Shown one piece after another: positions 9,010 to 27,194 of a stretch of DNA of 27,194 bases. Within the stretch, counting starts at the first letter, position 1. Each line of letters begins with the position of its first letter. Under the pieces are notes generated by a model. The model was not told the origin of the DNA, made no database searches, and saw only the letters and a list, made by a program, of their open reading frames with translations. This DNA is from a virus: positions 1-27,194 of the IMG/VR virus record IMGVR_UViG_3300017751_000173. One strand, given 5' to 3'. The position numbers and the translations under genes are program-made.

Positions 9010-10995
9010 ATGGTTACTAAGGTACGTGATACGCAGAAGATTTTTGCGGCACCTGCACTACCCGAAGCCCCTACGGAGTACAGCCAACTATGGCAGTCAC
9101 AGCATAACGCTGTGCTTAGACTTTTTTTCTCGAACGTAGATAATTCTATTGCCGCAGCTTTAAAGCTAGACACCGATGACATCATTGATGGCTCTATACC
9201 TAACAGTAAACTAGAAAACTCTACTGTGTCTTTTGGGGGCGTAACTGTGTCATTAGGTGGCGCTGATGCTACCCCTGCGTTTGACCTGTCTGATGCCACA
9301 AACTACCCTACATCTAGTTTAAGTGGAACTATAGCTACAGCCCAGATAGCTGATGGTGCAGTTACACCCGTGAAGTTATCTGCTACATACCTACAAAATA
9401 TCGTGGAAGATACTAGCCCACATCTGGGCGGGCAGTTAAACGGTAATTCCAATTCGATTACTAATATAGGTAGTATCACCGCTAGCACTGGAACATTTTC
9501 TACTGTAACTGGTGCAATAGTCACGACCAGTGGAAATATAGAAGCAACAGGCGGCAACATTACAGCAGGTGGTAACATTGTTGTTGGTGGCACAGTCGAT
9601 GGTGTAGATATAGCAGGACTAAACACTACTGTAGCAGGTAAAGCAGACTTATCAGGTGCTACCTTTACTGGCGGTGTAAGCATTGGAACTCTTCCAAGTA
9701 ACCCAGAAAATTTTTCTGTAACAGGTGTGGCTTACTTATATGGTGGCGCAAGTGTAACAGGCAATATTACAGTTACAGGTACAGTAGACGGTGTAGACAT
9801 AGCGGCACGGGATGCTGTTCTAACTTCTACAACTACTACCGCTAACTCTGCAATGCAAGACTTAGTAGATGATACTACTCCACAGTTAGGTGGTACTTTA
9901 AACCTGAACGGCAATGTTGTTACAGGTGCAGGGACAATATCTACGTCGTCAGGTATTGGAACTACAAATGGAGATGTTGGCACAACTAACGGTAATCTAT
10001 ATGCGACATCAGGTCATGTACAAGCACGAGAAGCCGAGATTGGGAGTGGTAAAACTGGCTCGTTTGACGATAATTACAGTACAGGTACAAATTCTGGCAG
10101 CTCCACTAAAGTAGTTGATATAGGCACTGGATACCATAATGGTGGCACAACAACAATTAACATTGGCCCAACATCGGGAACTACCACTAAGACCATTAAC
10201 CTAAATGCTAATACAAATGTAGCTGGTAATATTGCAGTTACGGGTACAGTAGACGGCAGAGACGTAGCCGCAGATGGCGCCAAGATAGATGTCCTAGGCA
10301 AGTTTGCTTATGGTGATGCAATGGCTGTAGGTATATCAGGCACAGGGGAGAAGACAGTATTTACATTTGGCTTACCTGCACCTGCATCTGGCACGGTTAT
10401 GCGATCAATAACAGGCAGTATTCAGGTTAGATTTTACCTTAATAGCGGCAACACACCTCCCAGAGACATCCAATATCAGGCATGGCTTCAAATCCTGAGC
10501 ACTGCCGCGGGGGGTACATCTTTAGGCACAGCAACTTACTCTTCGTCTCCCTCTAGTTATCAGGCTTGGTATTATGTATCTGGCAATAAAACAGACTTAG
10601 TTAGCCCGTATAGGGGCAGACTAGCAACTAGTGTGACTGGGGCAAACTATGGTACTATGATGGGGTGCTACTATGATGTTGCTACTAATCGAACTTATAT
10701 AAGAGTAAGTAAATACCCCAACGCGACAACTGTATATGCCAATGTGGAAGTATTTTATAGCCCAACTAACTTTTACAGCCCCGGGACTTATGTTTCGCCT
10801 TATGTTTCTAACTATAACCGTATACGCATAGATGCCGCTACTGTTTATAGCACTAGGATGATAGACTTTAACGAAGTATTCCCAAGAACAGGAGATTCAT
10901 TGTATTTGCGAATGCGGTACAGAAGCCTAACTGGTACTACGGGCATGAGTATACTTGCATATAATAACCAAGGATTTTTAGAGGTCACTCCATGA
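9010..10995 (+). CDS. Tail fibre protein with repeated shaft motifs
   Basis: This 661-residue protein has a short N-terminal part (ALPEAPTEYSQLWQSQHNAV) that probably attaches to the virion. A long beta-rich shaft follows with repeated Gly/Thr/Asn motifs, including two copies of a Val-(E/D)-Asp-Thr-(S/T)-Pro-x-Leu-Gly-Gly element and three copies of a GTVDG(V/R)D element. Both are common in marine phage fibres and resemble trimeric beta-helix shafts. The last 220 residues (from about residue 440) are aromatic- and Ser-rich, without the repeats, and are the likely receptor-binding tip. No enzymatic motif is seen. GAGG at 8999-9002 precedes the start at good spacing. The stop overlaps the next start by four bases (ATGA), so the 76-residue protein that follows may be a fibre chaperone or cap. 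Confidence 0.75.
   Translation: MVTKVRDTQKIFAAPALPEAPTEYSQLWQSQHNAVLRLFFSNVDNSIAAALKLDTDDIIDGSIPNSKLENSTVSFGGVTVSLGGADATPAFDLSDATNYPTSSLSGTIATAQIADGAVTPVKLSATYLQNIVEDTSPHLGGQLNGNSNSITNIGSITASTGTFSTVTGAIVTTSGNIEATGGNITAGGNIVVGGTVDGVDIAGLNTTVAGKADLSGATFTGGVSIGTLPSNPENFSVTGVAYLYGGASVTGNITVTGTVDGVDIAARDAVLTSTTTTANSAMQDLVDDTTPQLGGTLNLNGNVVTGAGTISTSSGIGTTNGDVGTTNGNLYATSGHVQAREAEIGSGKTGSFDDNYSTGTNSGSSTKVVDIGTGYHNGGTTTINIGPTSGTTTKTINLNANTNVAGNIAVTGTVDGRDVAADGAKIDVLGKFAYGDAMAVGISGTGEKTVFTFGLPAPASGTVMRSITGSIQVRFYLNSGNTPPRDIQYQAWLQILSTAAGGTSLGTATYSSSPSSYQAWYYVSGNKTDLVSPYRGRLATSVTGANYGTMMGCYYDVATNRTYIRVSKYPNATTVYANVEVFYSPTNFYSPGTYVSPYVSNYNRIRIDAATVYSTRMIDFNEVFPRTGDSLYLRMRYRSLTGTTGMSILAYNNQGFLEVTP
9562..10275 (+). 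repeat. Fibre shaft repeats (GTVDG(V/R)D and DTSPxLGG elements)
   Basis: Within the fibre, GTVDGVDIA, GTVDGVDIA and GTVDGRDVA occur near 9588, 9778 and 10246. Each is preceded by a Gly-Asn-Ile strand (GGNIVVG, TGNITVT, AGNIAVT). A second element, EDTSPHLGGQLN / DDTTPQLGGTLN, occurs near 9408 (just upstream of the coordinates given) and 9867. The spacing is irregular, so these are conserved shaft motifs rather than a strict tandem repeat. Confidence 0.6.
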
Positions 10996-11222
10996 TACAA
11001 GTAGGGTATATAAAGACAGTAGGTGACGAAGAGGTAGACGTTATAGAAACTACTGTCGAAACGCCTGATATGGTGGACGTAAACACAGCGTTAGCTTCTT
11101 TGCAGACAACTTTGGCTGGTAGAACCGACATAGTAGAGCTATTTGCCCAAGAATACTTTGGTGAAGATGATGAAGACGGTAACAGAATTTACCATAAAGT
11201 TGCATTTCAGGATTTAATCTAA
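10992..11222 (+). CDS. Small acidic protein, unknown
   Basis: This is a 76-residue acidic protein (MIQVGYIKTVGDEEVDVIET, then a helical NTALASLQTTLAGR segment, an acidic EYFGEDDEDGNR turn and a final beta strand). I do not recognise the family. It overlaps the fibre stop by four bases and touches the giant gene by a TAATG junction, so the three are probably translated together. GAGG at 10981-10984 sits seven bases before the start. Candidate roles are a fibre chaperone, an assembly factor or a small virion protein; nothing in the sequence favours one. No signal peptide, membrane segment or Cys is seen. Confidence 0.55.
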   Translation: MIQVGYIKTVGDEEVDVIETTVETPDMVDVNTALASLQTTLAGRTDIVELFAQEYFGEDDEDGNRIYHKVAFQDLI

Positions 11223-14200
11223 TGTCTGATTACGTAGGCATGACCTTCGATGAAATAAAAGCTGCCAAATCTAAAGAGTGGATAGAGTCTGAAGAATACA
11301 CGCAAATCATCGCCGACCTTGAGCAGGCGAATCAGGTTCACAAGAGTGCACTAGACGCCTACCGTGAGGCGGGCGGAATTAAGGGCGACGAGGATTACCC
11401 TAGCTACTTTCCTACTCCGCACCCGGATTCTTGGTATAGTCAGCAGATTAACGATATTTACAATCTTTTGAACGTGAGCTTCAACGGTTTTTTTAAGGAC
11501 AGGATTCCATATTACGACCCCAGCCTAGTCCCTTACATGAAACAACTGCTTTTGGACGAATACATTCTACCTCCTCCTACGTCGGAGGGTCAAGCCAGAT
11601 TGCGCGCATGGAGTGATGAGGCCATACCCGGCATGGAGGGGGCATTTGCTGAGGCGGAATCTGCCCATAGTTATATTTTAGAATACGAAAGTCGTTACCC
11701 AAAACGTCAAGGCTACCCGCGAGTAAAAGAGCACTTCGGCGGTCACCGGAGCTTGATTCGCCCAACATATGAGGATCTGTATGGGGATCAAGGCCCGACC
11801 CTTGTGGATATAATGACAGAGACAGGGAACGCAAGAAACGGGATTAGTAAGTTAAAGAGTAAAGTCGAAAATGTTAACCAGCATAACACTAATGTAGAGT
11901 CACACTTTGAGTTTATAAAAAGTAACTACGACGAAGCAAAAAGGCTTGTAGAGGCCGATGAAAGCAGGAGGGGCGACTTTGCTACCGAAGAAGAGTATGA
12001 CGCGTGGTTTGCCACTCACGATTCAGATGGCGACGGAGTAAATAACGCAGATGATCCCTCCTTGTATGACGCGTCCGTGTCTGATGACGGTGCCTACGCC
12101 CGAAAATTTTCTGAATTAAGAGAATCTTTAGATTTTATTAATATGTACCCTCTTAAACGAGTGGTGTACGACCCAAGCGGCAACCCCACAACTGAGGAGT
12201 ATGATCCGGAATTCTCGGGGCTCCCCTCCAAATCTTCAACTGGGTTTGTATCGCCCGACGAATACGACCCCGCCAACGTTTTTACCTATGACTATGACGG
12301 CGATGGTATCCCTGATTCTAGCGAAGTAGGTATACCGGAGTGGATTAGACAACTGCCCGAAGAGACCGACGAAGAGTACAAGGCATTCCTCGAAGAATGG
12401 TTTGGTGATATGAGTATAGGTAATCCTCAATTTGGTTTTGTCGGCGCAGACCTTGATTACGAGGCGGACATCTCCTTAATTGATTACCTGACTGCGACTA
12501 GCGGTTGGAAAACCCCCGACATGGACGTAGATGGGGACGGCATAAACAACCTTGAAGATGAGTTTGCATTTTTATCGTCAGAGTGGGAAGACGCCGATGG
12601 TGATCGGCTTGGCGATAACGAAGCGGATGACGACGTAACCACGGCAGACCCAAATCGGATAGATACTGATGGCGATGGCGTGTACGATGTAGACGACGCT
12701 TTTCCAAACGATGCTACTGAAGATACTGACTCAGACGGGGATGGTGTTGGGGATGCGGCTGATTTTTACCCGGACGACTCGGATCGCCAAGAATTACAAG
12801 ATGCTGACGGGGATGGAGTGGATGACAGAGACGATGCTTTCCCCAACAACCCTAATGAGTACATTGACACGGATGGAGATGGTGTAGGTAATAACACTGA
12901 TTTTTACCCGGACGACCCGGATCGCGTTGAAATCAAAGATTCTGATGGTGATGGTTTACAAGACAGTCTAGACGCATTTCCCTATGACCCCGACAAACAA
13001 ACCTCAGCAGATGCAGATCCGGTAGAAGATTTAGCGCCAGAATTTAAAAATCCTAGTGCGAACACCGACGATGAGACCCAAGCTAGGGAGGCAGGAAAAG
13101 AAGCCGCGGGGGAGAAACTAAAAGAATACTCGGAACGGTTTTATACGCATTCTGAGTCGGGGTACTATACTCACCAAAATACCGAAGAACTAAAAGAAAT
13201 ATTGGGTATAACCGACATAGCTGAATTTACTAGTGGGCAAGCCCTTAAAACGGGCACTAACGCCATACTGTATCAGGGATATGAGCGACCGCTTACTGTA
13301 GACGAGGTGTGGGCCGGGTACCAAGCGATCATGAATGGGGCTAAAACCGTGTTAGACCCACGAGCCAAAGAGCTTATGAGTCAGGGCAGCATGTCCGGTA
13401 ATGCTAGGTTGATAGATTATGGCAAACTAGCGGTAGGTTCTCAGCCTTTTGTAGGTATGTCTGGCGCTTTTGATGATATAGGATATATATGGGACGGACA
13501 AGAATACTTTTATAAAACAAACGAAGACCCTAGTGTAAGGGCAAACATTAACTTAGCTAATCACGGGGCGTTTTTTGGGGATGGCCCTGCTAGCAGAGTT
13601 GACCTGACGAACGATACATACCTTGACATGGTTAAAGCGGGCGCTACTCCCATAATCTTTAATGGGTATTATGATGTTCTGTCTAGGGCCGCCATGCTAC
13701 CAGAACTTTTTGACTTTGAAATGTCTGGCAAAAATCCGTCTGACCAAACAGATGGTGTATGGAGACCTGAGACCACAACTCCGCAGATGTTAGTCTACTA
13801 TGGTTCAAAGGAAGGGGCTGAAAACGGGGACAACACTGACATAGTAGACATAGTAATTAACTATGATCGACAAACTGGGTATGGGTACAAGCTAGACAAA
13901 CAAGATAGGTTTGTAAGCGCAAAACAAGCGGGTACCGCAAAGGCCATGCAGTTTGGCCCGGAGGTAATGTTCTTAACAGCAACCACAACTCAGGCGAACA
14001 ATGGTTGGGAGTCGGTAACTCCCAGACTACGAAAAATAGCGGCGGATCAATACGTAAAAGACCATTCTCAAGGAGTATTGTGGGAATCGGGAGCCGTGAA
14101 GCCGGGACAAGCTATATCCTTTGACATCCAGACGGGCGAGAATCCCGATGGTAGTCCTATAACTCTGTGGGAAGGGTTTGAGACAAAGTATAATTTTATA

Positions 14201-17200
14201 GACACGGAGCATGGAGTACCTATACGCGCCGAAGACCCTACTGCAGGGTTAATACGTGGTGCGGATGTAATACCAAAAGCAGAGGATGTAGCAGAAGCAT
14301 ACTTCATGATAAAAAGCCCTGCCTTCGGAATAGATAACCGTAGGGGCGCCGACTTATGGTTAGCATCCCTAGACCCAGTAATACAAGATTTGTTTTTTGA
14401 TCGAGATTTTTATAACCCTAATGAAAAGGTGATAGACGATCTAATATCTACAGTGGGCGCTGCAAATATAGTAGGTGGTGGTGGGCTAGCTAGAATTGAC
14501 TCCGAGAAAATTAAGGCTTGGGGTAATAATTTTAGTGGCACAGCGGCGGAGAAAAAATCAGCAAAAGAGTTAACAGATGCTTTAGTAAGCTACCATGCCG
14601 GAGAATACCTAGAGTTTGGTGCCCTAAGCATAATAGTAGATGTTAATACGCTTGCAGAAATAGAGTTTGAGGCAGATCCTCCGGAGGTAGAGGAAGGCAC
14701 TTTCGTAGGTAAAGACACACTTCTAAATGAATTAGCAAGAAGTAACGCAATCATAGGTTTGCAGGATGCATGGAGTAATGCGAGCCTTCAGCCCGAATAC
14801 CAACGCATCCATGACAACGAGTTTAGGATAGAGCAGGATAGGCAGATAAAATACGCGATAGAGCGGTCTAGCGCTTACGTACTTAGAGACAGTGCGGGTC
14901 GTCCAGTACATGAAGGAATGTATTTTAATTCATCTGCTACTAGCTTGGGTGGCTTCGTACCCCCTACCACTTTTGGTACTTCTGACGGGTACCCTACAAT
15001 TATACAGTCGCTGTTATTCGAAGAGAAGTGGTGGATACAGGCGTTTCAGTCTTCGGTGGTAGGTAGGTTTGAACCCCCGATGTATATGGACGTGCCAGAA
15101 GAGAACCAAGCGCAGTTATGGCCGGGGGAAGCGAGTGGTGAGGAGTTGTGGAGAGACACTTCGCGGCTATACATGAAGTTGCCTTCCGCTGCGCCCGTAG
15201 TTAGGTCTCCTGCCCTGCAGCCCCGCGGAGACCTTATGGGCAAAGATGACTCTACCTATGTGGGTTCTCAGTTTGACCTAATAGCTATGGATGGCCCTTA
15301 CCAAGCGTACAAAAAAGCAATAGAGGAAGGAAAAACAGAAGCTCAAGCTCAAGCAGCTGCAGCCGCAGTGCCCAACCCAAATGATCAACTACTTGCGACT
15401 TGGGCTGGCATGGGGGAAGACAGGTCTGAGCGGCGTAATCAGTTTCTAGGCGCTATCAACGAGTCAGTGTACTCTGACGGGGGTTGGGATGTCTCCTCGG
15501 GGGGCTGGCCTACAGACTTATACGCCCAAAACGCTCCCAACGGCGGGGTATGGATAGATATATCTAACGGCATGGCTCCCATAGGCGCTTATACCATGAT
15601 GTATATAGCACAACCCCCACTAGTAGACGCGGTAACTGGGTGGTCTAGCCCTGTAGGCAAACTTATCTCTACTACTTTGTCTCTGGCTTTCCCTCCACTT
15701 TACTTGGTGGTTCAAGGCCTACGAGCCGCTAATGGGGAGACACTAAAAACAAGTGACTGGATAAGTATTGTAACCGCGGGACTAAAAGTAGGTGGTAAGC
15801 TGAAAGCAGGCACTACTAAAGAAGGCGCGGAAACTGCGGGTGAGACAGCTAGAGAGGCAGCTGAAGCAGAAGCTATAGCGGATGGGTTTAATGGGCAGGC
15901 AGTTACCTCTATGGGCGATAGTGCTTACAGCGCCGCATACACAACTGCTATTAATGGTATAGGTATAGCAGGGTTAACTGCAAAACAAACCGTAGCGCTT
16001 ATAAATGTAGCGGGTGGGCAGAATCCCGGCACTGCCTTATTAACTTCTTTTGGCCCAGATTACCTAGAAAAAGGGTTTTCGAACCTAGGAGTAGATACTT
16101 CTCTTTATACTAACATGAGCCAACCTGTGAAAGACGGGTTTAATGTGTTCTTGGCCGAACGTTTAGACGGCAACAGTTTTTCTGATTCGTTAAGACAGGG
16201 CGGAGTAGAGTTCTTTGCAGAATACATATCTGAGAATGACCTAGTAGACGAAATAAAATTAATAGCTGAGGGTTTTATAGACGACCTAGGCCCCGCTATT
16301 TCGGCAGTGGGTGACTTATTCAACGAAAGTCAGTTGAGTGATGCTCTTGATGCGGTGCTTGATCTAGTGCCAGAGAGTGTTGTAGAAGAGTTGTCGGCCC
16401 TTTTGACTAGTACGGGAGAAGCGTTAGATCCTATACTAGACTTCGCAGAGGCGAGCATAGATCTTGTAACGGATGTGGTTGTAGAGCCACTGTCAGATTT
16501 AGTATCAGGTATTAGTAATAGGGTAGATTTAGCAGTAAACGGCGTGGTGAACTTATTTCCTGATGGGCTGCCAGAGGCGGTGGATGCGAAAATAACCGCT
16601 ATTGTTGACGGGCTAAGTGGGGCGTCTAAAATCTCATTTGAAAAATTGCCGGAAGCGTCTAAAAAAGCCTTAGAGACTAGTGTAGCCCAACTCGTTGTAA
16701 ATGGAGAGATAGACAATCAAGGACTAGAAACGGCGTTTACTAAAGAACTAATAACGGCAGAAACCGTAAACGATCTAATAGACTCTAGCGAGGGTAAGAC
16801 AAAAGATGTTCTGATGGCCATAGGCCCGGGAACACTAACCACTGCTATGCGTGCGTCTATAAACATGGGGCTTGCGGGTGGTAGTGTCGGTGGCGCATTT
16901 ATACAGACTATTGCTGCCGCTACAGCTAACGCACTTAAATATGCGGCAGACGTTGGGGGTATAGAGGGATTAACTCGAGAAATTAGTCAGTTCCAAGATA
17001 ATATTTCTGGGCAACAAAGACGCGTAGAAGATGCCGCGGCAGAAGTAAACTCTAAAGACGAGGAAGTGACCGCTAAGCTATTAGAAATAGAGGCTATAAC
17101 TACGGATATAGAAGCGCAACGAGCAAGGTTGTCCGAACTGTACGAAGCGGCTATAGCTGAAGGAGCTACTGAGGCTGATCGTGTAGCGTTTGAGAGCTAC

Positions 17201-20200
17201 CAAGAAAACTTTACTGCTTCTTTACCTTACCTTGAGACGGACATAAACAACATAAAAGGAGAGTTGGCGGGCATAGAAGAAGAGTATGAAGTAGCCTTGG
17301 GGATATACAATGACAACATAGACCTGTTAGAACAATATTCTCGAGATACAGATCCCAAGTTACAGCTTGAATTTTCTAACATGCACGTTGCGGTAGCAAA
17401 CCAACTAAACCAAGACTTCGGTGCCACGTGGCAACAATATGCTCAGGTTAATGGGCTTGGGGAAGGCGCTACTATATTTGATGTTGCGGAGCACTATATA
17501 TCTCAAGGGTATGTAGACAGTGTACCTACCACAGTTGAAGATTATAATGCCAGAATAAACTTAGCTACTAACGCGTTTGTGGATAATGTAGTTGCAGACG
17601 CGGGTATTAATTTGGCCGAGCTGCCTCCCAACAGCCGAGCGGATATACGAGCGGCAATACTAAACGAGGTGAATACTTTCGCTGGCGTCGAAGGCGTTAC
17701 CCCCCTACAAATGCTAGAAACTATGCAGGATGACCCCACCTACCGCGATGGATTTAAGGCAGGTACTGAGTTTGATGATGTAATCTTGCAGGCGTACAAC
17801 CAGTCTTATATTACCGACGATGGCGAGCCCCTAAATTTTACAAGTTTGGCAGAGGTAGAAAACTACGAGCTAGAGCAGCGTGCTAACCAGTTCATTAATG
17901 CGTACCTCCCCATAGACATTAATACTGGAGCTCCTGTTGACCCAGAAGAGTACAGCAAATACCTCACCGACCTTATTGAAGGGCGGTTGTTTGTTGCGTT
18001 TGATGAAAGTGGTATGTATTCGTGGGACGAAGCTACACAAACAATAAAATTTAACACCCTAACAGGTTTACAGGAAGTTGTTGACGTTGTCCCGGGAAAA
18101 ACACTTTCTCAGATGGCAGCAGAAGACCCTATATTCTATGTACAAACCTTGGGGCAGTTAGAAAATAATGCCAATGCACTTGATTTGGTAGCAAAGGTAC
18201 AAGAAGAAATAGGCGAGACTTTTGAAATTCCTAACTATGCTGATACCGTGCTTGGCGTGCCCGATTCAGAGCTGCCTTGGATAGTAAGAGTTTCTAGAGA
18301 CTATATGCAAGACATAGCGGTAACACGCCAAGAATACTTAGATAAAGTAGAAGAACTAGAATCTTTTGAAGGCCCACTAACCCCTGAACAGGAATTAGAG
18401 TTAGAAGAAACTAGAGGCGCTTACGAAACAGCCGACCGACAGTTAATGACTGCTTACAATGTTATAAATGTTGGCGAGAACATGGTAGGGGCTTACAACA
18501 CAATATACCAAACTTTTGGTGTGGCGGGACAAGAAGGTAGGGCTAGGAAGGAAGGCGAAATGGCTATGCTCAATGCTATACAGCAGGGCATGGATACCGA
18601 AGAAGCTAAAGAACTAGGCGCTAAGGTTACTGAAGAACTTCTAAACGCGATAGATTACTCCACACTAGCAGACAATGAACTTAATCGCACGTTAACCATG
18701 CTAGAGGGTGTAGCCAAAGAGTTCGTACCCGAGACATACACAAAAGAAGTAGAGGAGATGTATGCTCGTTGGGATGAAGCCGAGACTTTTGGGGAAGGTG
18801 TCGCAGCAGTATTCGGTTCTATAGCAGCTACTCCAAGGGCTTTTTGGAACGAAGTTATAATACAAGAGCTTGGAGAGACTGCTATACAACTAGCTACCTC
18901 TGGGGGTTTGGGCCTTGTAACTAAAGAAGTAGCTATGCGACAGGCGGATAATATACTTGCAGAAATGACCGCCGTTCAGATAGGTACAGGTGTTTATACT
19001 GCTAGCGTGGCGCAAGATGTAGCGATGGAGTACGGACAAAATGTAGCGGAAGTATACGACACTACTATGTCTTTGTTATTTACTAAAGACGAGTATGTAA
19101 ATCCCCCGCAATACATAGCCGATCAGGGCGAGGACGCGGTACAAACGTACCGAGAAGATTTAGAGCAAGGGTATAACCAAATAGCTTTTGACACCTCTGT
19201 AAATGCAGGTACTTTCGCTATGGCTACGGTGCTAGCTACATTACCGTTTGAGGGCGGCTTAGATAAGCTACTATCTAGAAAATTCTTTGGTGATGTTGGG
19301 TTAGATACACTAGAGTTAGTAGCGGAAGACACAAATTTGCTACAAAATACTATTGGTGATTACCTATCAGTAATAGGCAAAGAAAGTTTCGCAGAGGGTG
19401 TACAAGAAGGTCTTACTGTGGGGTATGCCGAGAACGCATACTATAACTTAGGGTTTACTGACCGCCCAGCTGCCGCTCAGGTAGGCGTAGGTATGACTGT
19501 GGGTAGTATAGCAGGTGCAGGTACTACGGCGATTATAGCTCCTATAGGGTACCCAACTCCACAAGCGGAGGTTGCTAGCCAAATAAACGACCCTATAGGC
19601 AGGATACTTGTCACTACTAATGATGAAGTATATCAGGCTATTGAGTTGGGGGATGTGCCTAAAGTTAATGAATTAATAGCCTCTATTGGTTTAGCCACTG
19701 TTATTCCCCTGAACATAGAGCTACTAAATGCCACGGACGACAGTTATATATTAACCCCAAACGAAGTTGTCGCGGCTTATGAGGGTATGGGGCTAGAGCC
19801 CCCAGAAGGCTTTGTAGATACTATAGCTACTCAGTACATAGTAAATGATGAGACTGGGGAAGTTACAGTGTCAAGCCCCGTGACTGACAGTGATACGCTA
19901 GAGCAACAACTTGCTGAGCAGTGGGAATTAGCGTTTCCTTCGGATGCTGATGGTGATGGTGTACCCGACCGCACAGACGCATTTCCTGATGACCCTGCGG
20001 AGACAGTTGATACTGATGCTGATGGTGTAGGTGACAATGCGGATGCCTTTCCTGCAGATCCCGCTGAAACACTGGACTCAGATAGTGATGGTGTAGGCGA
20101 CAACACTGATGTATTTCCTACTGACGCTTCTGAGTACATTGATACCGATGCTGATGGTATGGGTGATAATGCTGATGAGTTACCTAACGATCCTTTATAT

Positions 20201-22294
20201 ACAACTGAAGCAGCCTTTGAAGATGCTAACGACATGGAACGGTTGGGTAAACACGCGTTAGTGGCAGATATTGATGGTGACGGCATAGTAGACGCGCTTA
20301 GTGATGGCCTATTATTCCTAAGACACTCGTTTGGTATGCGAGGTGATGAGTTAATAGAGGGGCTAATTAAGGACGACTCAATACGAAATACCGCAAAAGA
20401 AGTAGAGGAGTATTTAAGCGACCCTAGAGTACAGCAGCTATATGATTTTAACAAAGATGGCCAAATAGATTCGTTGACCGATGGTCTAGCTTTCCTCAGA
20501 GCCGCTTTTGGTATTCATGGAGATGAGCTGACTACGGGGTTACTGCTTCCCGAAGATGATGCGGTACAAGTGTTGGATAACTTGGTCACGGCCACTCACT
20601 CAGCTTTCGCACTTGATGCAGACGGTTTGCCCACAGATGAGTTAAAAAACATACCTGCCCCTGCAGGAGCTATACATAATGCTGCACTTACTGCCCCTGA
20701 ACTAACAGATACTGACGCTAAAAATGCATTAGATGATTTGGCCGCTTATAGCTATGACGAGCTAAACGCGCTAACTTATTCAGACACTGACGCAGACGGA
20801 GTTGTGGATGCCGAAGACGCATTCCCAGAAGATGCTACCGAAACACTAGACTCGGATGGCGATGGTGTAGGCAATAACACTGACCCACTCCCCAACGATG
20901 GTTCTGTCTACGATCAGGCTACATACGACATTTTCTATGCTAACCAAGACAACGACGATGACGGCGTTAGAAATGCAGACGATGTGTTTCCCGATGACCC
21001 CACAGAAACTATTGACACTGATGCTGATGGTGTAGGTGATAACGCTGACTTCTACCCACAAAACCCAAACCGCCAAGAATTACAAGATGCTGATGGTGAT
21101 GCGGTAGATGATAGAGACGATGCGTTCCCTAACGATGCTACGGAGTCTGCTGATACCGATGCTGATGGTGTAGGTGATAATGCTGACGTATTCCCAGAAG
21201 ATGCTACTGAAACTATTGATACCGATGCTGATGGCATAGGTGATAATGCCGACTTCTACCCACAAAATCCAGACCGCCAAGAGTTACAAGATGCTGATGG
21301 TGATACGGTAGATGATAGAGATGATGCATTCCCTAACGACGCTTCAGAAACTACTGATTCGGACGGTGATGGTGTAGGTGATAATGCTGACGTATTCCCA
21401 CAAGATGCTACTGAAACTATTGACACTGATGCTGATGGTGTAGGTGATAATGCTGATATTAGGCCTACTGACCCTGATGTATTTGATGAAGCAGGGTATG
21501 AAGCAGGGCTAGACACAAAAGATTCTGTTATTGCTGAGCAAAAAGACGCGCTTGAGGCTACTTCAGAAATACTTGGTAAAGAAGCTAACGAAGTCACACA
21601 AGAAGACATAGATTTAGTAACTGACTATTTAGCAGGCGTAGAGCTAGCTCAAGACAAAATAGACACCCTAATGCGTTATGACGTAACTGGGCAGGATAAT
21701 TTAGTTACGCAAGATGACTTGGCTTTATTGACGCAAGCGTATACACTAGGAGACTATACAGGTTTTGATCCTGACGCAGATTTTAATCCTGCAACAGGTA
21801 TGTACCTAACGGCACAAGAAAAACAAGCCGAGATAGATGCGCTACAGCAGGCGGAGCTTGACCGAGAAGCAGAATTTGAACAGCAGTTAGAAGAGGAATT
21901 GGCTCAAAAAGCTAGCGAGGTAACAAGTGACATACAAACTCAGGTTCAAACAGGAGTTGAGCAGTTAGCGGAGCGAGAGGAAGAGAAACGAAAAGCTAAC
22001 TTACTAGAGTCGTTAACTGCTCCGGGGCGAAAAGTGGATGTAGAGACTCCCGACCCTGCGGTCATACAATATGAATACGATATTTCAGGAGACAGCATTT
22101 TTGCAAACCCTGACCAAGAAGCGGCTTATGAGCAACGCAGTCCGTACGCGCTTCAAGATAGTCAAGATAACCCGTACGGAGATAGTTTAATTTATAAGAT
22201 ACAAGACAGACTTCAGAAACAACAAGGCTTAGCTTCTGGAGGAGCGGTTAAAAACAAAACAAACGAGATCCTACGGATACTTGGAGAAAGGTAA
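11222..22294 (+). CDS. Giant 3690-residue virion/ejection-type protein with calcium-loop arrays
   Basis: This single uninterrupted 3690-codon frame starts in a TAATG junction with AGGA nine bases upstream. Rough plan: residues 1-260 are a charged helical start; 267-592 carry nine thrombospondin type 3-like loops; about 600-1440 are a mixed region I do not recognise. Residues 1480-1500 are hydrophobic, 1576-1612 and 1867-1913 are Gly/Ala-rich helices, and 1917-2040 are a coiled coil. Gly/Ala-rich stretches return at about 2541-2600, 2658-2684 and 2757-2780. Residues 2908-3420 hold fourteen further calcium loops and two dockerin-like units; 3487-3500 are one more EF-like loop; and a Gln/Glu-rich helix leads to a SGGAV tail. 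Position and composition suggest an internal protein ejected with DNA, as T7 gp16 or the N4 virion polymerase are. I see no polymerase, transglycosylase or protease motif. No signal peptide is present. Role inferred. Confidence 0.7.
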   Translation: MSDYVGMTFDEIKAAKSKEWIESEEYTQIIADLEQANQVHKSALDAYREAGGIKGDEDYPSYFPTPHPDSWYSQQINDIYNLLNVSFNGFFKDRIPYYDPSLVPYMKQLLLDEYILPPPTSEGQARLRAWSDEAIPGMEGAFAEAESAHSYILEYESRYPKRQGYPRVKEHFGGHRSLIRPTYEDLYGDQGPTLVDIMTETGNARNGISKLKSKVENVNQHNTNVESHFEFIKSNYDEAKRLVEADESRRGDFATEEEYDAWFATHDSDGDGVNNADDPSLYDASVSDDGAYARKFSELRESLDFINMYPLKRVVYDPSGNPTTEEYDPEFSGLPSKSSTGFVSPDEYDPANVFTYDYDGDGIPDSSEVGIPEWIRQLPEETDEEYKAFLEEWFGDMSIGNPQFGFVGADLDYEADISLIDYLTATSGWKTPDMDVDGDGINNLEDEFAFLSSEWEDADGDRLGDNEADDDVTTADPNRIDTDGDGVYDVDDAFPNDATEDTDSDGDGVGDAADFYPDDSDRQELQDADGDGVDDRDDAFPNNPNEYIDTDGDGVGNNTDFYPDDPDRVEIKDSDGDGLQDSLDAFPYDPDKQTSADADPVEDLAPEFKNPSANTDDETQAREAGKEAAGEKLKEYSERFYTHSESGYYTHQNTEELKEILGITDIAEFTSGQALKTGTNAILYQGYERPLTVDEVWAGYQAIMNGAKTVLDPRAKELMSQGSMSGNARLIDYGKLAVGSQPFVGMSGAFDDIGYIWDGQEYFYKTNEDPSVRANINLANHGAFFGDGPASRVDLTNDTYLDMVKAGATPIIFNGYYDVLSRAAMLPELFDFEMSGKNPSDQTDGVWRPETTTPQMLVYYGSKEGAENGDNTDIVDIVINYDRQTGYGYKLDKQDRFVSAKQAGTAKAMQFGPEVMFLTATTTQANNGWESVTPRLRKIAADQYVKDHSQGVLWESGAVKPGQAISFDIQTGENPDGSPITLWEGFETKYNFIDTEHGVPIRAEDPTAGLIRGADVIPKAEDVAEAYFMIKSPAFGIDNRRGADLWLASLDPVIQDLFFDRDFYNPNEKVIDDLISTVGAANIVGGGGLARIDSEKIKAWGNNFSGTAAEKKSAKELTDALVSYHAGEYLEFGALSIIVDVNTLAEIEFEADPPEVEEGTFVGKDTLLNELARSNAIIGLQDAWSNASLQPEYQRIHDNEFRIEQDRQIKYAIERSSAYVLRDSAGRPVHEGMYFNSSATSLGGFVPPTTFGTSDGYPTIIQSLLFEEKWWIQAFQSSVVGRFEPPMYMDVPEENQAQLWPGEASGEELWRDTSRLYMKLPSAAPVVRSPALQPRGDLMGKDDSTYVGSQFDLIAMDGPYQAYKKAIEEGKTEAQAQAAAAAVPNPNDQLLATWAGMGEDRSERRNQFLGAINESVYSDGGWDVSSGGWPTDLYAQNAPNGGVWIDISNGMAPIGAYTMMYIAQPPLVDAVTGWSSPVGKLISTTLSLAFPPLYLVVQGLRAANGETLKTSDWISIVTAGLKVGGKLKAGTTKEGAETAGETAREAAEAEAIADGFNGQAVTSMGDSAYSAAYTTAINGIGIAGLTAKQTVALINVAGGQNPGTALLTSFGPDYLEKGFSNLGVDTSLYTNMSQPVKDGFNVFLAERLDGNSFSDSLRQGGVEFFAEYISENDLVDEIKLIAEGFIDDLGPAISAVGDLFNESQLSDALDAVLDLVPESVVEELSALLTSTGEALDPILDFAEASIDLVTDVVVEPLSDLVSGISNRVDLAVNGVVNLFPDGLPEAVDAKITAIVDGLSGASKISFEKLPEASKKALETSVAQLVVNGEIDNQGLETAFTKELITAETVNDLIDSSEGKTKDVLMAIGPGTLTTAMRASINMGLAGGSVGGAFIQTIAAATANALKYAADVGGIEGLTREISQFQDNISGQQRRVEDAAAEVNSKDEEVTAKLLEIEAITTDIEAQRARLSELYEAAIAEGATEADRVAFESYQENFTASLPYLETDINNIKGELAGIEEEYEVALGIYNDNIDLLEQYSRDTDPKLQLEFSNMHVAVANQLNQDFGATWQQYAQVNGLGEGATIFDVAEHYISQGYVDSVPTTVEDYNARINLATNAFVDNVVADAGINLAELPPNSRADIRAAILNEVNTFAGVEGVTPLQMLETMQDDPTYRDGFKAGTEFDDVILQAYNQSYITDDGEPLNFTSLAEVENYELEQRANQFINAYLPIDINTGAPVDPEEYSKYLTDLIEGRLFVAFDESGMYSWDEATQTIKFNTLTGLQEVVDVVPGKTLSQMAAEDPIFYVQTLGQLENNANALDLVAKVQEEIGETFEIPNYADTVLGVPDSELPWIVRVSRDYMQDIAVTRQEYLDKVEELESFEGPLTPEQELELEETRGAYETADRQLMTAYNVINVGENMVGAYNTIYQTFGVAGQEGRARKEGEMAMLNAIQQGMDTEEAKELGAKVTEELLNAIDYSTLADNELNRTLTMLEGVAKEFVPETYTKEVEEMYARWDEAETFGEGVAAVFGSIAATPRAFWNEVIIQELGETAIQLATSGGLGLVTKEVAMRQADNILAEMTAVQIGTGVYTASVAQDVAMEYGQNVAEVYDTTMSLLFTKDEYVNPPQYIADQGEDAVQTYREDLEQGYNQIAFDTSVNAGTFAMATVLATLPFEGGLDKLLSRKFFGDVGLDTLELVAEDTNLLQNTIGDYLSVIGKESFAEGVQEGLTVGYAENAYYNLGFTDRPAAAQVGVGMTVGSIAGAGTTAIIAPIGYPTPQAEVASQINDPIGRILVTTNDEVYQAIELGDVPKVNELIASIGLATVIPLNIELLNATDDSYILTPNEVVAAYEGMGLEPPEGFVDTIATQYIVNDETGEVTVSSPVTDSDTLEQQLAEQWELAFPSDADGDGVPDRTDAFPDDPAETVDTDADGVGDNADAFPADPAETLDSDSDGVGDNTDVFPTDASEYIDTDADGMGDNADELPNDPLYTTEAAFEDANDMERLGKHALVADIDGDGIVDALSDGLLFLRHSFGMRGDELIEGLIKDDSIRNTAKEVEEYLSDPRVQQLYDFNKDGQIDSLTDGLAFLRAAFGIHGDELTTGLLLPEDDAVQVLDNLVTATHSAFALDADGLPTDELKNIPAPAGAIHNAALTAPELTDTDAKNALDDLAAYSYDELNALTYSDTDADGVVDAEDAFPEDATETLDSDGDGVGNNTDPLPNDGSVYDQATYDIFYANQDNDDDGVRNADDVFPDDPTETIDTDADGVGDNADFYPQNPNRQELQDADGDAVDDRDDAFPNDATESADTDADGVGDNADVFPEDATETIDTDADGIGDNADFYPQNPDRQELQDADGDTVDDRDDAFPNDASETTDSDGDGVGDNADVFPQDATETIDTDADGVGDNADIRPTDPDVFDEAGYEAGLDTKDSVIAEQKDALEATSEILGKEANEVTQEDIDLVTDYLAGVELAQDKIDTLMRYDVTGQDNLVTQDDLALLTQAYTLGDYTGFDPDADFNPATGMYLTAQEKQAEIDALQQAELDREAEFEQQLEEELAQKASEVTSDIQTQVQTGVEQLAEREEEKRKANLLESLTAPGRKVDVETPDPAVIQYEYDISGDSIFANPDQEAAYEQRSPYALQDSQDNPYGDSLIYKIQDRLQKQQGLASGGAVKNKTNEILRILGER
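12020..12997 (+). repeat. N-terminal calcium-loop (TSP3-like) array
   Basis: There are nine acidic loops of the form Asp-x-Asp-x-Asp-Gly-x-x-(Asp/Asn). The first three are spread out (residues about 267, 357 and 435), and the other six are packed into residues about 457-592, joined by DAFPND or DFYPDD linkers. This is the pattern of thrombospondin type 3 repeats, which wrap around calcium ions and fold only when calcium is bound. The DNA here is visibly richer in G+C than the middle of the gene. Confidence 0.8.
19943..20200 (+). repeat. Calcium-loop (TSP3-like) array, C-terminal side, part 1
   Basis: Four loops (DADGDGVPD, DTDADGVGD, DSDSDGVGD, DTDADGMGD) begin at residue 2908 at intervals of about 23 residues and are joined by AFPDDPAET-type linkers. 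The array leads directly into the dockerin-like pair. The repeat style is typical of secreted proteins of marine Gammaproteobacteria as I know them. Confidence 0.8.
20267..20545 (+). other. Pair of dockerin/EF-hand-like units
   Basis: Two copies of the same unit start at residues 3016 (DIDGDGIVDALSDGLLFLR) and 3075 (DFNKDGQIDSLTDGLAFLR), 59 residues apart. Each has a calcium loop with Asp at positions 1, 3, 5 and 9, a helix, and a shared tail of Phe-Gly-x-(R/H)-Gly-Asp-Glu-Leu. Such duplicated units occur in bacterial extracellular proteins annotated as dockerin type I or EF-hand. In cellulosomes a duplicated dockerin binds a cohesin; whether this pair binds a partner is unknown. Confidence 0.7.
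20783..21480 (+). repeat. Calcium-loop (TSP3-like) array, C-terminal side, part 2
   Basis: About ten loops occur between residues 3188 and 3420, alternating two types: a DTDADGVGDNAD loop with a (V/A)FPxDATET linker, and a DADGDxVDDRDDAFPND loop preceded by DFYPQNPxRQELQ. The array includes the 204-base duplication listed separately. A short region with a less regular DNDDDGVRNADD loop lies near residue 3242. Confidence 0.82.
21044..21451 (+). repeat. Tandem 204-base duplication (68 codons) in the giant gene
   Basis: Bases 21044-21247 and 21248-21451 are two in-frame copies of a 68-residue block that contains several calcium loops. By eye they differ at about 22 of 204 positions, many of them silent, so the duplication is younger than the divergence of most other loops. 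Unequal crossing-over or slippage in such an array would change its length in whole-loop steps without breaking the frame. Confidence 0.8.
21680..21718 (+). other. Isolated EF-hand-like loop
   Basis: Residues 3487-3499 read DVTGQDNLVTQDD, a calcium-loop-like run followed by a helical LALLTQAY segment. It resembles half a dockerin unit. The Asp spacing (1, 6, 12, 13) is less canonical than in the pair upstream, so calcium binding is uncertain. Confidence 0.4.
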
Positions 22295-24148
22295 ATGAGT
22301 GAAGAGAACGACGGTAATTTTCTAACAGATGCATTCGGTTCTATTGGAAACCTGTATGAAGGTGCAGGTAACTTCCTAACTAAACAGGATAACCCGCTAT
22401 CTAGGTTTACAAACTTGGCTTTGTCTGCTGCCGTGGCGAAGTATGCTCAACCGCAAAAAGAAAAATTAGGCTACCAAGGTAAGGTAGATATGGACAAACA
22501 ACGCGTCCGAGAGCGCGTGCCTATGCAACAATCCCAAAATGCTGGGCGAGATATAGGTATACTTAGTCTTTCGCAACCTACACAAGAAGGACAAGACCCT
22601 GTAGCAACCAATAAGTATTTGACTGGTGAGGAGCGCAGGCCGGGCGGTGCAGGAAGACGTTACTTCTCTGACCCTATAATGGCGAAACGCCCAGAAACGG
22701 GAATCCCTACTTTAGAAGAAGCTCAAACTACAGCCAAAGCTCAAGCTGACGCGCTAGCAGCCAAGCAAGCACCTACGCCACCCCCTGAACAACCCGCTAT
22801 GGCTATGGGAGGACGTGTACCTAAGTATGCTAACGGTGGTATTGCGGGTGCACATAAAGGTTACTACTTAGGTGGTAAGACTGATGGTATGGCAGACGAG
22901 GTACCTGCTCGTATTGATGGTAATCAAGAAGCTCGTTTGAGTGATGGTGAGTTTGTTATTCCTGCAGATGTTGTAAGTCACCTAGGCAACGGTAATTCTG
23001 ATGCAGGCGCAGACCAGTTACATAGTATGATGGACGGAGTACGTAAAGCTCGTACAGGTAATCCAGAACAAGGTAAACAAATAAACCCCCAGAACTTCAT
23101 GCCTAAAATGGCACAGGGTGGTATAGCTCAATATGCTGGTGGTGGTTCTGTATACGAAAACAAACCATTTAAAGATAAGTTCCCTGATGGAGATGCTGTA
23201 GTTGGCACAACGAGCACTGCGCCCACAGCGGGAGATGCTACGACTACCACTTCTAGCGACAATACAACTCCTGTAGGACAAGCGACAGGGAAAGAGTCTT
23301 CTCTATCTAATTGGGTAGGAGACTATGTTACTGAAGGTATACTAGAACCTGCTAGCGCATTGGCAGCAGATCCGTATGAGGCTTATGAGGGCCCACTTAC
23401 TGCGGGAACTAGTTCACTACAAGACCAAGCGTTTACGGGTATTTCTCAACTAAATAACCCTTTGAGTGGTGGTTCAGTAACTAACCAAATGGGTACGTTT
23501 ACTCCTGATGCAGCCACATTAGACCCATACATGAACCCCTACACGCAAAACGTTATCGACCGCACTGCTGCTGACATGCGTAGGCAAAGTCAGATTGACG
23601 CACTACAAGACCGCTCAACAATGACAAGGGCCGGTGCATTTGGTGGTTCAAGAGATGCGCTAATGCGTGCTGAAAGAGCTAACAACCTGAACCGTGGTAT
23701 CGGTGATATGTCCGCAACAGCAAGGGCACAAGGGTTTGATACCGCTATGACTAACGCCCGTACTGGGCAGGAACTAGCTAATCAGTATGGACAAGACATA
23801 TTGGGCTTACAAGCTGATGCGGGGAACCTACAAAGACAAGTTGCTGCTGAGGGCGTTGCTGCTGATTACGAGCAGTTCAGAGAAGAGAGAGACTTTGGTT
23901 ATAAACAACTACAGTTCTTACATTCTTTACTGCAAGGTATGCCAGTGGCTGCTCAGAACTACGCATACACGGAGCCAAGTGAGATTGATACCTTATTACA
24001 AGCAGGTGTTGCGGTTGAAGATATTTACTCAATCTTGGGACTTGGTTCTAATAGTGATAGTGGTAGTGGTAGTGAATCCCAAAATGATGATGGCGCTAGT
24101 CAGGTAGTTGACGAAAATCAAGCCGCAGCTAACGCAAATACAGCTTAG
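22295..24148 (+). CDS. Internal virion-type protein with DGEFVIPADVVSHLGNG motif
   Basis: This 617-residue protein starts one base after the giant gene's stop, with GGAG and AAAGG just upstream. Residues about 140-170 are Pro/Ala/Gln-rich. Residues 169-200 carry Gly-Gly signatures (MAMGGRVPKYANGGIAG and a YYLGGKTDG run), and residues about 212-245 contain SDGEFVIPADVVSHLGNG followed by a MMDGVRKARTGNPEQGK helix. This segment is a family signature I recognise from internal or structural proteins of marine podoviruses. The second half has YMNPYTQNVIDRTAADMRRQ and an Ala/Gly/Arg-rich helical repeat region (residues about 415-545) that I also associate with ejection or virion proteins of marine phages. 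The C-terminus is Ser/Asp/Gly-rich. It is probably packaged inside the capsid with its neighbours. Biochemical activity is unknown. Confidence 0.65.
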   Translation: MSEENDGNFLTDAFGSIGNLYEGAGNFLTKQDNPLSRFTNLALSAAVAKYAQPQKEKLGYQGKVDMDKQRVRERVPMQQSQNAGRDIGILSLSQPTQEGQDPVATNKYLTGEERRPGGAGRRYFSDPIMAKRPETGIPTLEEAQTTAKAQADALAAKQAPTPPPEQPAMAMGGRVPKYANGGIAGAHKGYYLGGKTDGMADEVPARIDGNQEARLSDGEFVIPADVVSHLGNGNSDAGADQLHSMMDGVRKARTGNPEQGKQINPQNFMPKMAQGGIAQYAGGGSVYENKPFKDKFPDGDAVVGTTSTAPTAGDATTTTSSDNTTPVGQATGKESSLSNWVGDYVTEGILEPASALAADPYEAYEGPLTAGTSSLQDQAFTGISQLNNPLSGGSVTNQMGTFTPDAATLDPYMNPYTQNVIDRTAADMRRQSQIDALQDRSTMTRAGAFGGSRDALMRAERANNLNRGIGDMSATARAQGFDTAMTNARTGQELANQYGQDILGLQADAGNLQRQVAAEGVAADYEQFREERDFGYKQLQFLHSLLQGMPVAAQNYAYTEPSEIDTLLQAGVAVEDIYSILGLGSNSDSGSGSESQNDDGASQVVDENQAAANANTA

Positions 24149-24162
24149 GAGAAGTATAGGTG
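24146..24162 (+). promoter_or_regulatory. Ribosome binding site and GTG start
   Basis: The upstream stop (TAG, 24146-24148) overlaps AGGAG at 24147-24151, which lies eight bases before a GTG at 24160. The strong Shine-Dalgarno and the absence of an ATG at this point fix the start as GTG. Confidence 0.75.
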
Positions 24163-26469: not shown

Positions 26470-27194
26470 ATGCCTAGCATACAAGAGATATACACTGCTA
26501 TAAATAAAGCAGAAGCTCGGGGAGACAAGAAGTCTGTAGAAATTCTTTCGGGGCTATTTGAGAAACAGCGACGCGCTGATATGGGCTTGCCTCCACTCCC
26601 AAAAGAAGCTGATGGTTCTGCCAAGAAAGAAAAGACGGACGAAGAAGTTGGGTTCTTGGAGAACGTAGCTACGGGTATTGGTTCAGGTTTTGTTGGGACT
26701 ACTGCTACGGCTGCGCTAGGTGCTGCTACGGTACTTGAAGAAGATACCGAGTTAAAAGCTAGAAAAAAGATACTAGACTTACAAGAAGACTTCACTCCTG
26801 AAGGCGGTGACAAAGACTCTATCACATATAAATTAGCATCTGGCGTAGGTTCGCTTGGTGCATTTGCTAGTACCGCACTATTAGGTAAAGCAGCGTTACC
26901 TGCTGCCGGTGTACTAGCTCTTGGCGCAGGCGCTGGTGAAGCGTCAGAACGTGCTAGGGCGTATGGCGCTAGCGAAGAAGAAAGAAACGCAGCTAGCTTA
27001 CGTGGTGCTGCTATTGGTACGCTAGAACTTCTACCCCTAGGTAGACTCGCTAAGGACTTAGACATTCCCGGCCTACCTGACTTCATAGAAAAATTATCTG
27101 GTAAGGTTACACCAAAGACCATTACTGGTATCAGAGATAGACTACAGCGTATGGCTGCCACTGGGGTATCTGAAGGCACGCAGGAAGCAACAGC
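26470..27194 (+). CDS. Internal virion-type protein, 3' partial
   Basis: An open frame starts at the ATG at 26470 (MPSIQEIYTAINKAEARG) and is still open at the right edge after 241 complete codons. AAGG at 26457-26460 lies nine bases upstream. An in-frame stop at 26449-26451 belongs to the previous gene, so no longer start is possible. Residues about 60-80 (ENVATGIGSGFVGTTATAAL) and 115-160 are Gly/Ala-rich and hydrophobic, separated by an acidic stretch. A segment GAGEASERARAYGASEEER then leads to a helix, and SEGTQEA stands at residues about 234-240. I associate the Gly-Ala-Gly-Glu-x-x-Glu-Arg / Glu-Gly-x-x-Glu pattern with large internal proteins of marine phages. It resembles a motif in the giant protein, so this is probably the next member of the ejection block. 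Confidence 0.65.
   Translation, partial: MPSIQEIYTAINKAEARGDKKSVEILSGLFEKQRRADMGLPPLPKEADGSAKKEKTDEEVGFLENVATGIGSGFVGTTATAALGAATVLEEDTELKARKKILDLQEDFTPEGGDKDSITYKLASGVGSLGAFASTALLGKAALPAAGVLALGAGAGEASERARAYGASEEERNAASLRGAAIGTLELLPLGRLAKDLDIPGLPDFIEKLSGKVTPKTITGIRDRLQRMAATGVSEGTQEAT

Follow-up and report, generated by a model that had tools for sequence, protein, structure and literature searches.

The window, by which we mean the whole stretch of DNA analysed, is a 27,194-base virus record that is open at both ends. One open reading frame in it encodes a giant protein, relatives of which are found in the same gene slot in L086/L087, L088, L089 and L193, and no tRNA was found in it. The genes and features are as follows.

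6424..9009, plus strand: virion structural or 'stabilization' protein (phrog_3287), upstream of the giant
9010..10995, plus strand: tail-fibre-like protein (phrog_32829), upstream of the giant
11222..22294, plus strand: giant protein of 3,690 aa, a single open reading frame
12020..13003, plus strand: N-side array of nine TSP3-like loops, residues 267-594, net charge -81, below the Pfam TSP_3 cut-off
18071..19978, plus strand: family core, residues about 2284-2919 (profiles A1/A3/c3)
18785..19552, plus strand: residues 2522-2777, a domain putatively akin to the N4-type virion RNA polymerase N-terminal domain (hhalign)
19943..20206, plus strand: C-side array, first block of four loops, residues 2908-2995
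20261..20491, plus strand: dockerin-like pair with loops from residues 3016 and 3075, below the Dockerin_1 cut-off
20783..21487, plus strand: C-side array, second block of ten loops, residues 3188-3422, net charge -73, with DNA repeats of 66 and 204 bp
21491..22291, plus strand: conserved C-terminal domain (alignment A2)
22295..24148, plus strand: ejection-cluster protein (phrog_4287 'DNA ejection protein', a weak match, E 0.0045)
24160..26451, plus strand: second small cluster protein of 763 residues, in synteny with relatives
26470..27192, plus strand: start of a second giant protein, inside which the contig ends; its relative in L005 resembles polyvalent proteins

The translation of the giant contains 23 loops resembling those of thrombospondin type 3 (TSP3) repeats. 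Nine start at residues 267, 357, 435, 457, 481, 503, 527, 549 and 573 and fourteen at residues 2908, 2930, 2952, 2974, 3188, 3210, 3243, 3265, 3289, 3311, 3333, 3357, 3379 and 3401, which is the count and the placement, dockerin-like pair included, given in an earlier note on this DNA. The C-terminal domain has a degenerate EF-type loop at 21680 (residue 3487) and a GG..EILRILGE tail at 22226.

The motif DxDxDG occurs 24 times in the giant, a count that takes in dockerin and overlapping hits, compared with a mean of 0.82 and a maximum of 6 in 2,000 whole-protein shuffles. With 5,000 local shuffles, the corresponding figures are 10 (mean 0.46, maximum 5) within residues 255-600 and 14 (mean 0.71, maximum 5) within residues 2900-3430. 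The loops were retrieved with a pattern requiring D at position 1 and D/N at positions 3 and 5, with positions 9 and 12 left free, so that the presence of D at positions 1, 3 and 5 in 23/23 loops is partly forced by the search. At the free positions, D/N is found in 23/23 loops (position 9) and D/E in 22/23 (position 12). The ligand positions of TSP3 are 1, 3, 5, 9 and 12, and tandem loops with Asp/Asn ligands at these positions are what the giant carries.

Codons were compared between repeats using 55 non-independent pairs from 11 chosen repeats of the 23, over the first 14 codons of each. In this set, the synonymous:nonsynonymous count is 51:10 for the free ligand positions 9 and 12 together and 30:0 for position 12 alone, all ten nonsynonymous changes thus falling at position 9, where N is also a ligand. 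Taking all five ligand positions, it is 115:10, versus 120:228 at the nine other compared loop positions. Judging from this difference between the free ligand codons and the codons elsewhere, calcium binding, and with it the calcium-ligand residues of the loops, looks to be under selection. The loop arrays on both sides of the core and their calcium ligands, as described in the earlier note, are present, and to this description can be added the apparent selection on the ligand codons.

The TSP3 or dockerin family label appears weaker than the loop observation itself. Pfam TSP_3 scored 14.0-16.3 bits on three array pieces (cut-off 25), Dockerin_1 scored 19.9 bits on the two stretches of the dockerin-like pair (cut-off 22.9), and a TSP_3 scan gave no match in the whole contig, nor in 14 control genomes. 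The single PDB sequence match at E <= 1 was the OmpA-family protein 5wtl (residues 3265-3376, E 3.5e-5). The arrays resemble such bacterial TSP3 repeats in their DxDxDG.xDxxD loops, in a spacing that is mostly 22-24 residues and in the P and F that follow the loop; unlike TSP3, they fall below the Pfam cut-off, are devoid of cysteines and belong to a gene of phage ejection type. TSP3 is a calcium-wrapped fold without regular secondary structure. A fold model of the array has few helices and no strands, but its pLDDT of 56.9 makes it unusable, and array stiffness is for that reason taken from what holds for thrombospondins. The loops should work like TSP3 beads even though they score below the Pfam cut-off.

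The gene slot of the giant recurs in its relatives: each of 20/20 family loci, chosen by us for this comparison, has the phrog_3287-type protein upstream, the ejection protein downstream, or the two together. Over its first 241 residues, the second giant shares 97% identity with a 2,095-residue protein of L005, which matches phrog_10089 (DarB-like, E 3.7e-38). LPD39 was detected in relatives of the second giant, at 31 bits in L014 and at 26.5 bits, just under the cut-off of 27, in L005. When the N-terminal region of the second giant was compared by hhalign, it reached 20.5% with the family core and 69.7% with the N4 domain over 30 columns (reversed controls 1.2 and 0.3%), a weak signal from which we claim no link to the N4-type domain.

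Three GG-centred motifs, LASGGAVK, MAMGGRVP and MASGGIVG, occur in the C terminus of the giant (22226-22291) and in the proteins at 22295-24148 and 24160-26451; they are possibly a shared packaging or processing signal. Near-perfect repeats of 24-33 bp at 24469-24587 encode a Met/Gly/Ala/Pro/Arg-rich stretch of the 763-residue protein, and L006 and L007 have short repeats at the matching place.

The whole giant gave no Pfam match above cut-off, with local InlJ_IG and Spectrin matches below it, and nothing usable against PHROGs. Profile comparison points to a kinship of the core with the N-terminal domain of the N4-type virion RNA polymerase (vRNAP). Using a 23-row family profile against three N4-type polymerases, hhalign paired window residues 2522-2777 with residues 207-444 of N4 gp50 at 95.6% (E 1.3e-8), compared with 0.3% or less for seven controls (reversed domain, polymerase domain, C-terminal domain, and gp51-, gp53-, portal- and coat-type proteins). 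The array-bearing clade alone reached 84.6% with the N4-type N-terminal domain, and the family profile reached 55.5% with N4, 86.7% with RPP1 and 71.1% (27 columns) with DSS3phi2 taken singly. Six of the 18 family members matched phrog_2206 ('virion RNA polymerase') at E <= 1, the best at 1.9e-7; the window's own core gave no match to it at E <= 1. An hmmsearch of the polymerases with the family profile (Z set to 1000) was near noise, with E values of 0.0044 for RPP1, 0.31 for DSS3phi2, 3.2 for N4 and 2.1 for a shuffled decoy. On these profile comparisons, the core is taken to hold a domain homologous to the N-terminal domain of N4-type virion RNA polymerases, which, together with the ejection-type neighbour genes, strengthens the earlier assumption that the giant is an ejected protein.

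The kinship does not appear to extend to the polymerase itself, of which HDD is a motif. A leave-one-out profile of the polymerase domain, built with N4 excluded, found N4 at 3.2e-39, and the window was not listed at E <= 100; any of the eight other giants that were listed had E values no better than 27 with the leave-one-out profile and no better than 14 with the full profile. By these searches, the giant is without a single-subunit RNA polymerase domain and is not a polymerase.

In its fold model, which is of mediocre quality (pLDDT 66.2), the core is nearly all helix. The model matched no PDB structure at E <= 0.001, the best viral structure match being an RNA polymerase fragment (E 0.0053, TM 0.15). 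In VIA-align, rows reached Z 6.2, a level common for helical models, and no ejection protein was among the 50 matches listed, which is uninformative either way. For the N-terminal domain of N4, the published study describes putative membrane helices at 224-278 and entry into nanodiscs, and the domain is thought to help build an inner-membrane complex (PMC12633501, preprint). By its relation to this domain, the core of the giant is a probable membrane domain.

A search with the whole protein returned one near-identical fragment, and a neighbour gene search led to L006 and L007, both with related giants. Core profile A1 yielded 4 loci and C-terminal profile A2 35 loci, the latter opening a wider family with protein lengths of about 1,000 to 4,055 residues. 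In tblastn against 50,697 phage records, there was no match for window residues about 627-2893 or for the first 2,177 residues of L087, one match over 5% of its length for the distant member L121, and one unannotated faecal phage record for the array and C-terminal region. When profile A1 was run against 84,980 species of bacteria and archaea, each represented by one genome, it gave 72 pattern matches and no relative, and we therefore assign no host.

The core of L087 is 82% identical to that of the window, of which it is the sister (tree support 100/99). On the tree, the root of which serves for drawing only, the label 'three or more loops' needs at least two changes, forced by well-supported branches. 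The EF-type loop of the C-terminal domain is intact in 24/35 rows, degenerate in four (window, L005, L006 and L007) and without a pattern match in seven, near-identical contigs being included among the rows; calcium loops of the family are thus not confined to arrays. The conserved C-terminal tail is present in array-free members as well.

The arrays themselves vary widely. The joint past the core contains about 31 loops in L088, 21 in L089 and 14 in the window, in a family range of 0 to about 31, and in L193, whose contig stops 213 residues beyond the core, three loops are followed by a coiled coil. In L087, the C-side joint is 914 residues long with one loop and no array, and the N-side array is kept. 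We reject an assembly artefact as the cause of this missing array, since the separate contig L086 is identical to L087 in 194/194 residues past the core, up to its own end, and in 2,991/3,001 residues overall; the farther part of the joint is covered by the one contig L087. Elsewhere in the family, the joint is filled differently: in L162 and L204 by a PE-rich stretch, (PE)n, and three loops, in L155 by loops and DSGDNLG-type repeats, in L014 by acidic DPDPVVA-type repeats, and in L094, L095, L099, L102 and L121 by extra copies of a module of roughly 65 residues. The N end of L088 has Ala/Lys/Glu-rich stretches; in the N-terminal part of its protein (L088:3230-15394), long stretches of this kind alternate with repeats of a domain starting TFQDFVNYYNRNH, so that this gene carries a further type of spacer.

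N-side arrays of three or more loops were found in 6/34 contigs, all in the clade of the window, with a regular expression that counts 8 rather than 9 loops in the window and with L107, L135 and L150 cut at the 5' end; among the 34 rows, L141 has only a partial core match and L017 and L116 are doubtful. The number of loop carriers is biased, 11 of these 34 contigs having been retrieved by scanning for the loop. Without them, 5/23 (window, L088, L089, L107 and L113) show at least three loops beyond the core, and in L107 and L113 the C-terminal EF loop makes up one of the four.

The dockerin pair changes sides, lying in the N-side region in L087 and L193 (residue 32) and L089 (residue 404) and in the C-side joint in the window (residue 3016) and L088 (residue 2869). 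Upstream, L193 and the window share 93-98% identity over four genes or gene ends, and 69% for the 6424 protein. The first 182 residues of the L193 giant are 92% identical to those of L087 and have no match in the N-terminal 258 residues of the window giant. Tandem DNA repeats of 66 and 198/204 bp are found in the window, L006 and L007. With joint contents, dockerin side and tandem repeats all varying, the loops appear to grow, shrink and move, the arrays lengthening by tandem duplication, and the core and C-terminal domain stay. Family comparison speaks against the arrays as a conserved two-sided device: the layout on both sides of the core, raised in the earlier note as a possible folding switch, is broken by the absence of a C-side array in L087, by the occurrence of N-side arrays in one clade only among the 34 contigs and by a dockerin pair that lies on either side.

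The reading we prefer, with a probability of about 60%, is that the giant is an ejection-apparatus protein in which calcium-stiffened, exchangeable acidic spacers flank a membrane domain of the vRNAP type. It would belong to the ejection apparatus of an uncultured podovirus-like family, and its core would be a membrane-inserting domain akin to the N-terminal domain of the N4 vRNAP, with the polymerase part absent. Spacer regions would flank the core on either side, filled in the window giant by TSP3-type calcium loops. With calcium bound, each array would be an extended, semi-rigid and strongly acidic string of beads, giving the link from the membrane domain to either end of the protein its reach and stiffness. 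We infer packaging, ejection and membrane insertion, as well as the calcium-dependent stiffness and the membrane side of each array; loops, ligand selection, gene slot and module exchange are observed here. Array length would change fast by tandem duplication and whole modules would be exchanged, which suggests that neither the precise loop count nor the side is critical. What speaks against this reading is that the ligands are conserved more strongly than a passive linker would require, and that the C-terminal EF loop, intact in 24/35 rows, is degenerate in the window, L005, L006 and L007.

If the arrays were simple acidic flexible linkers, calcium binding being an unused by-product of their origin, the filling of the same joint by DPDPVVA-type (L014), (PE)n (L162/L204) and DSGDNLG-type (L155) sequences would be readily accommodated, as would the low-complexity linker that follows the related domain in N4 (PMC12633501, preprint). 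Against it, the selection on the free ligand codons (51:10 against 120:228) goes beyond net charge, and the C-terminal domain retains one EF-type loop in 24/35 rows. We regard this explanation as unlikely. Arrays of TSP3 and dockerin type are characteristic of surface and secreted proteins in bacteria, and the one PDB match is to an OmpA-family protein; with a tail-fibre-like neighbour at 9010, the giant might also be an outer tail appendage or adhesin with the arrays as external stalks. This is quite improbable, as the core is related to an ejected, membrane-inserting domain and its model is almost all-helical, the gene sits among ejection genes, and the C-terminal tail is conserved in array-free members too.

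The earlier note had raised a calcium-driven folding switch, in which the arrays would be unfolded in passage, fold in a calcium-rich compartment and lock or pull the chain, in the manner suggested for the secretion of RTX toxins. The loops and the conservation of their ligands stand, and the arrays flank a probable membrane domain. What weakens the proposal is the sister L087 without a C-side array, the occurrence of N-side arrays in one clade only and a joint that is variable family-wide; from these comparisons, a calcium ratchet does not appear to be a conserved feature of the family. Moreover, seawater contains about 10 mM calcium, and it is in the cytosol of the host that calcium is low, rather than in the periplasm. 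If the phage is marine, as the same note assumed, the arrays would probably load with calcium before ejection unless the shell excludes it, and a capsid excluding calcium seems unlikely. As a marine virion would already be in about 10 mM calcium, the premise that the arrays are loose in the virion and fold outside is doubtful. The GGxGxD motif of RTX proteins occurs 0 times in the giants of the window, L087, L088 and L089. Like RTX, the giant has Asp-rich calcium repeats that were proposed to be loose at low calcium, but repeat and fold differ, RTX being a beta-roll. RTX domains are described as a random coil without calcium that folds at about 0.1-0.2 mM, the basis of the ratchet, and their secretion as running from C to N through a dedicated channel (PMC6891781). 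All in all, we give the switch little credence, and the alternative of a rigid rod offered alongside it fits the comparative data better. In a calcium-polarised variant, the membrane domain would lie in the inner membrane, one array would stiffen in the calcium-rich periplasm and the other loosen in the calcium-poor cytosol, so that the host gradient would direct passage, with array-free members using other means or none; this we hold to be very improbable.

Among known systems, N4 gp50 (Schitoviridae) resembles the window giant in being a giant single chain encoded near ejection genes, with a domain homologous by profile comparison. A long linker follows this domain in gp50, and a long spacer likewise in the giant; in the N4 study, the linker that ties the N-terminal domain to the polymerase is a 100-residue low-complexity stretch, the chain is likened by the authors to beads on a string, the passage of a 3,500-residue chain through the narrow tail is an open question, and the word calcium does not occur (PMC12633501, preprint). 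Whereas gp50 has the domain close to its N terminus, the giant has it at residues 2522-2777 of 3,690, and arrays and a coiled coil occupy the place of the polymerase. Polyvalent proteins are also giant and thought to be injected with phage DNA, and the paper describing them makes no mention of calcium, thrombospondin or EF-hand (PMC5512222). The second giant of the cluster is like them in the DarB-like and LPD39 matches of its relatives; the array-bearing giant is unlike them, having no Pfam match above cut-off. Searches of open-licence PubMed Central literature gave no description of such an array-bearing phage protein among the papers listed.

A loop-pattern scan of viral contigs returned 86 stretches, 80 of which were examined. 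They include further family members and at least two other sets of proteins alike in length and loop positions, TSP3-type arrays therefore not being unique to the giant. Proteins of about 1,900 residues have 10-12 TSP3-like loops near the N terminus (L189:1608-7328, L132:5563-11316, L138 and L195); both members scanned match phrog_31887, of unknown function, and some of the contigs reach about 205 kb. A set of about 1,050-1,090 residues has 6-7 calcium-type loops in like positions (L140:5221-8481, L177, L188, L128, L165 and L171), and L140, the one scanned, gave no PHROG match. The most loops seen, 55 of calcium type, are in a 2,515-residue viral protein on the minus strand (L148:3986-11530).

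The analysis connects a family of giant proteins from uncultured phages with the membrane part of the N4 virion RNA polymerase, which is poorly understood, and suggests that the N4-type domain occurs also without a polymerase, beside long exchangeable spacers. The natural variants of the joint, with no array or with 14, 21 and about 31 loops, and three or more in the truncated L193, would amount to a set of length and stiffness mutants. Should calcium act in ejection, divalent ions could matter for infection at more than the adsorption step.
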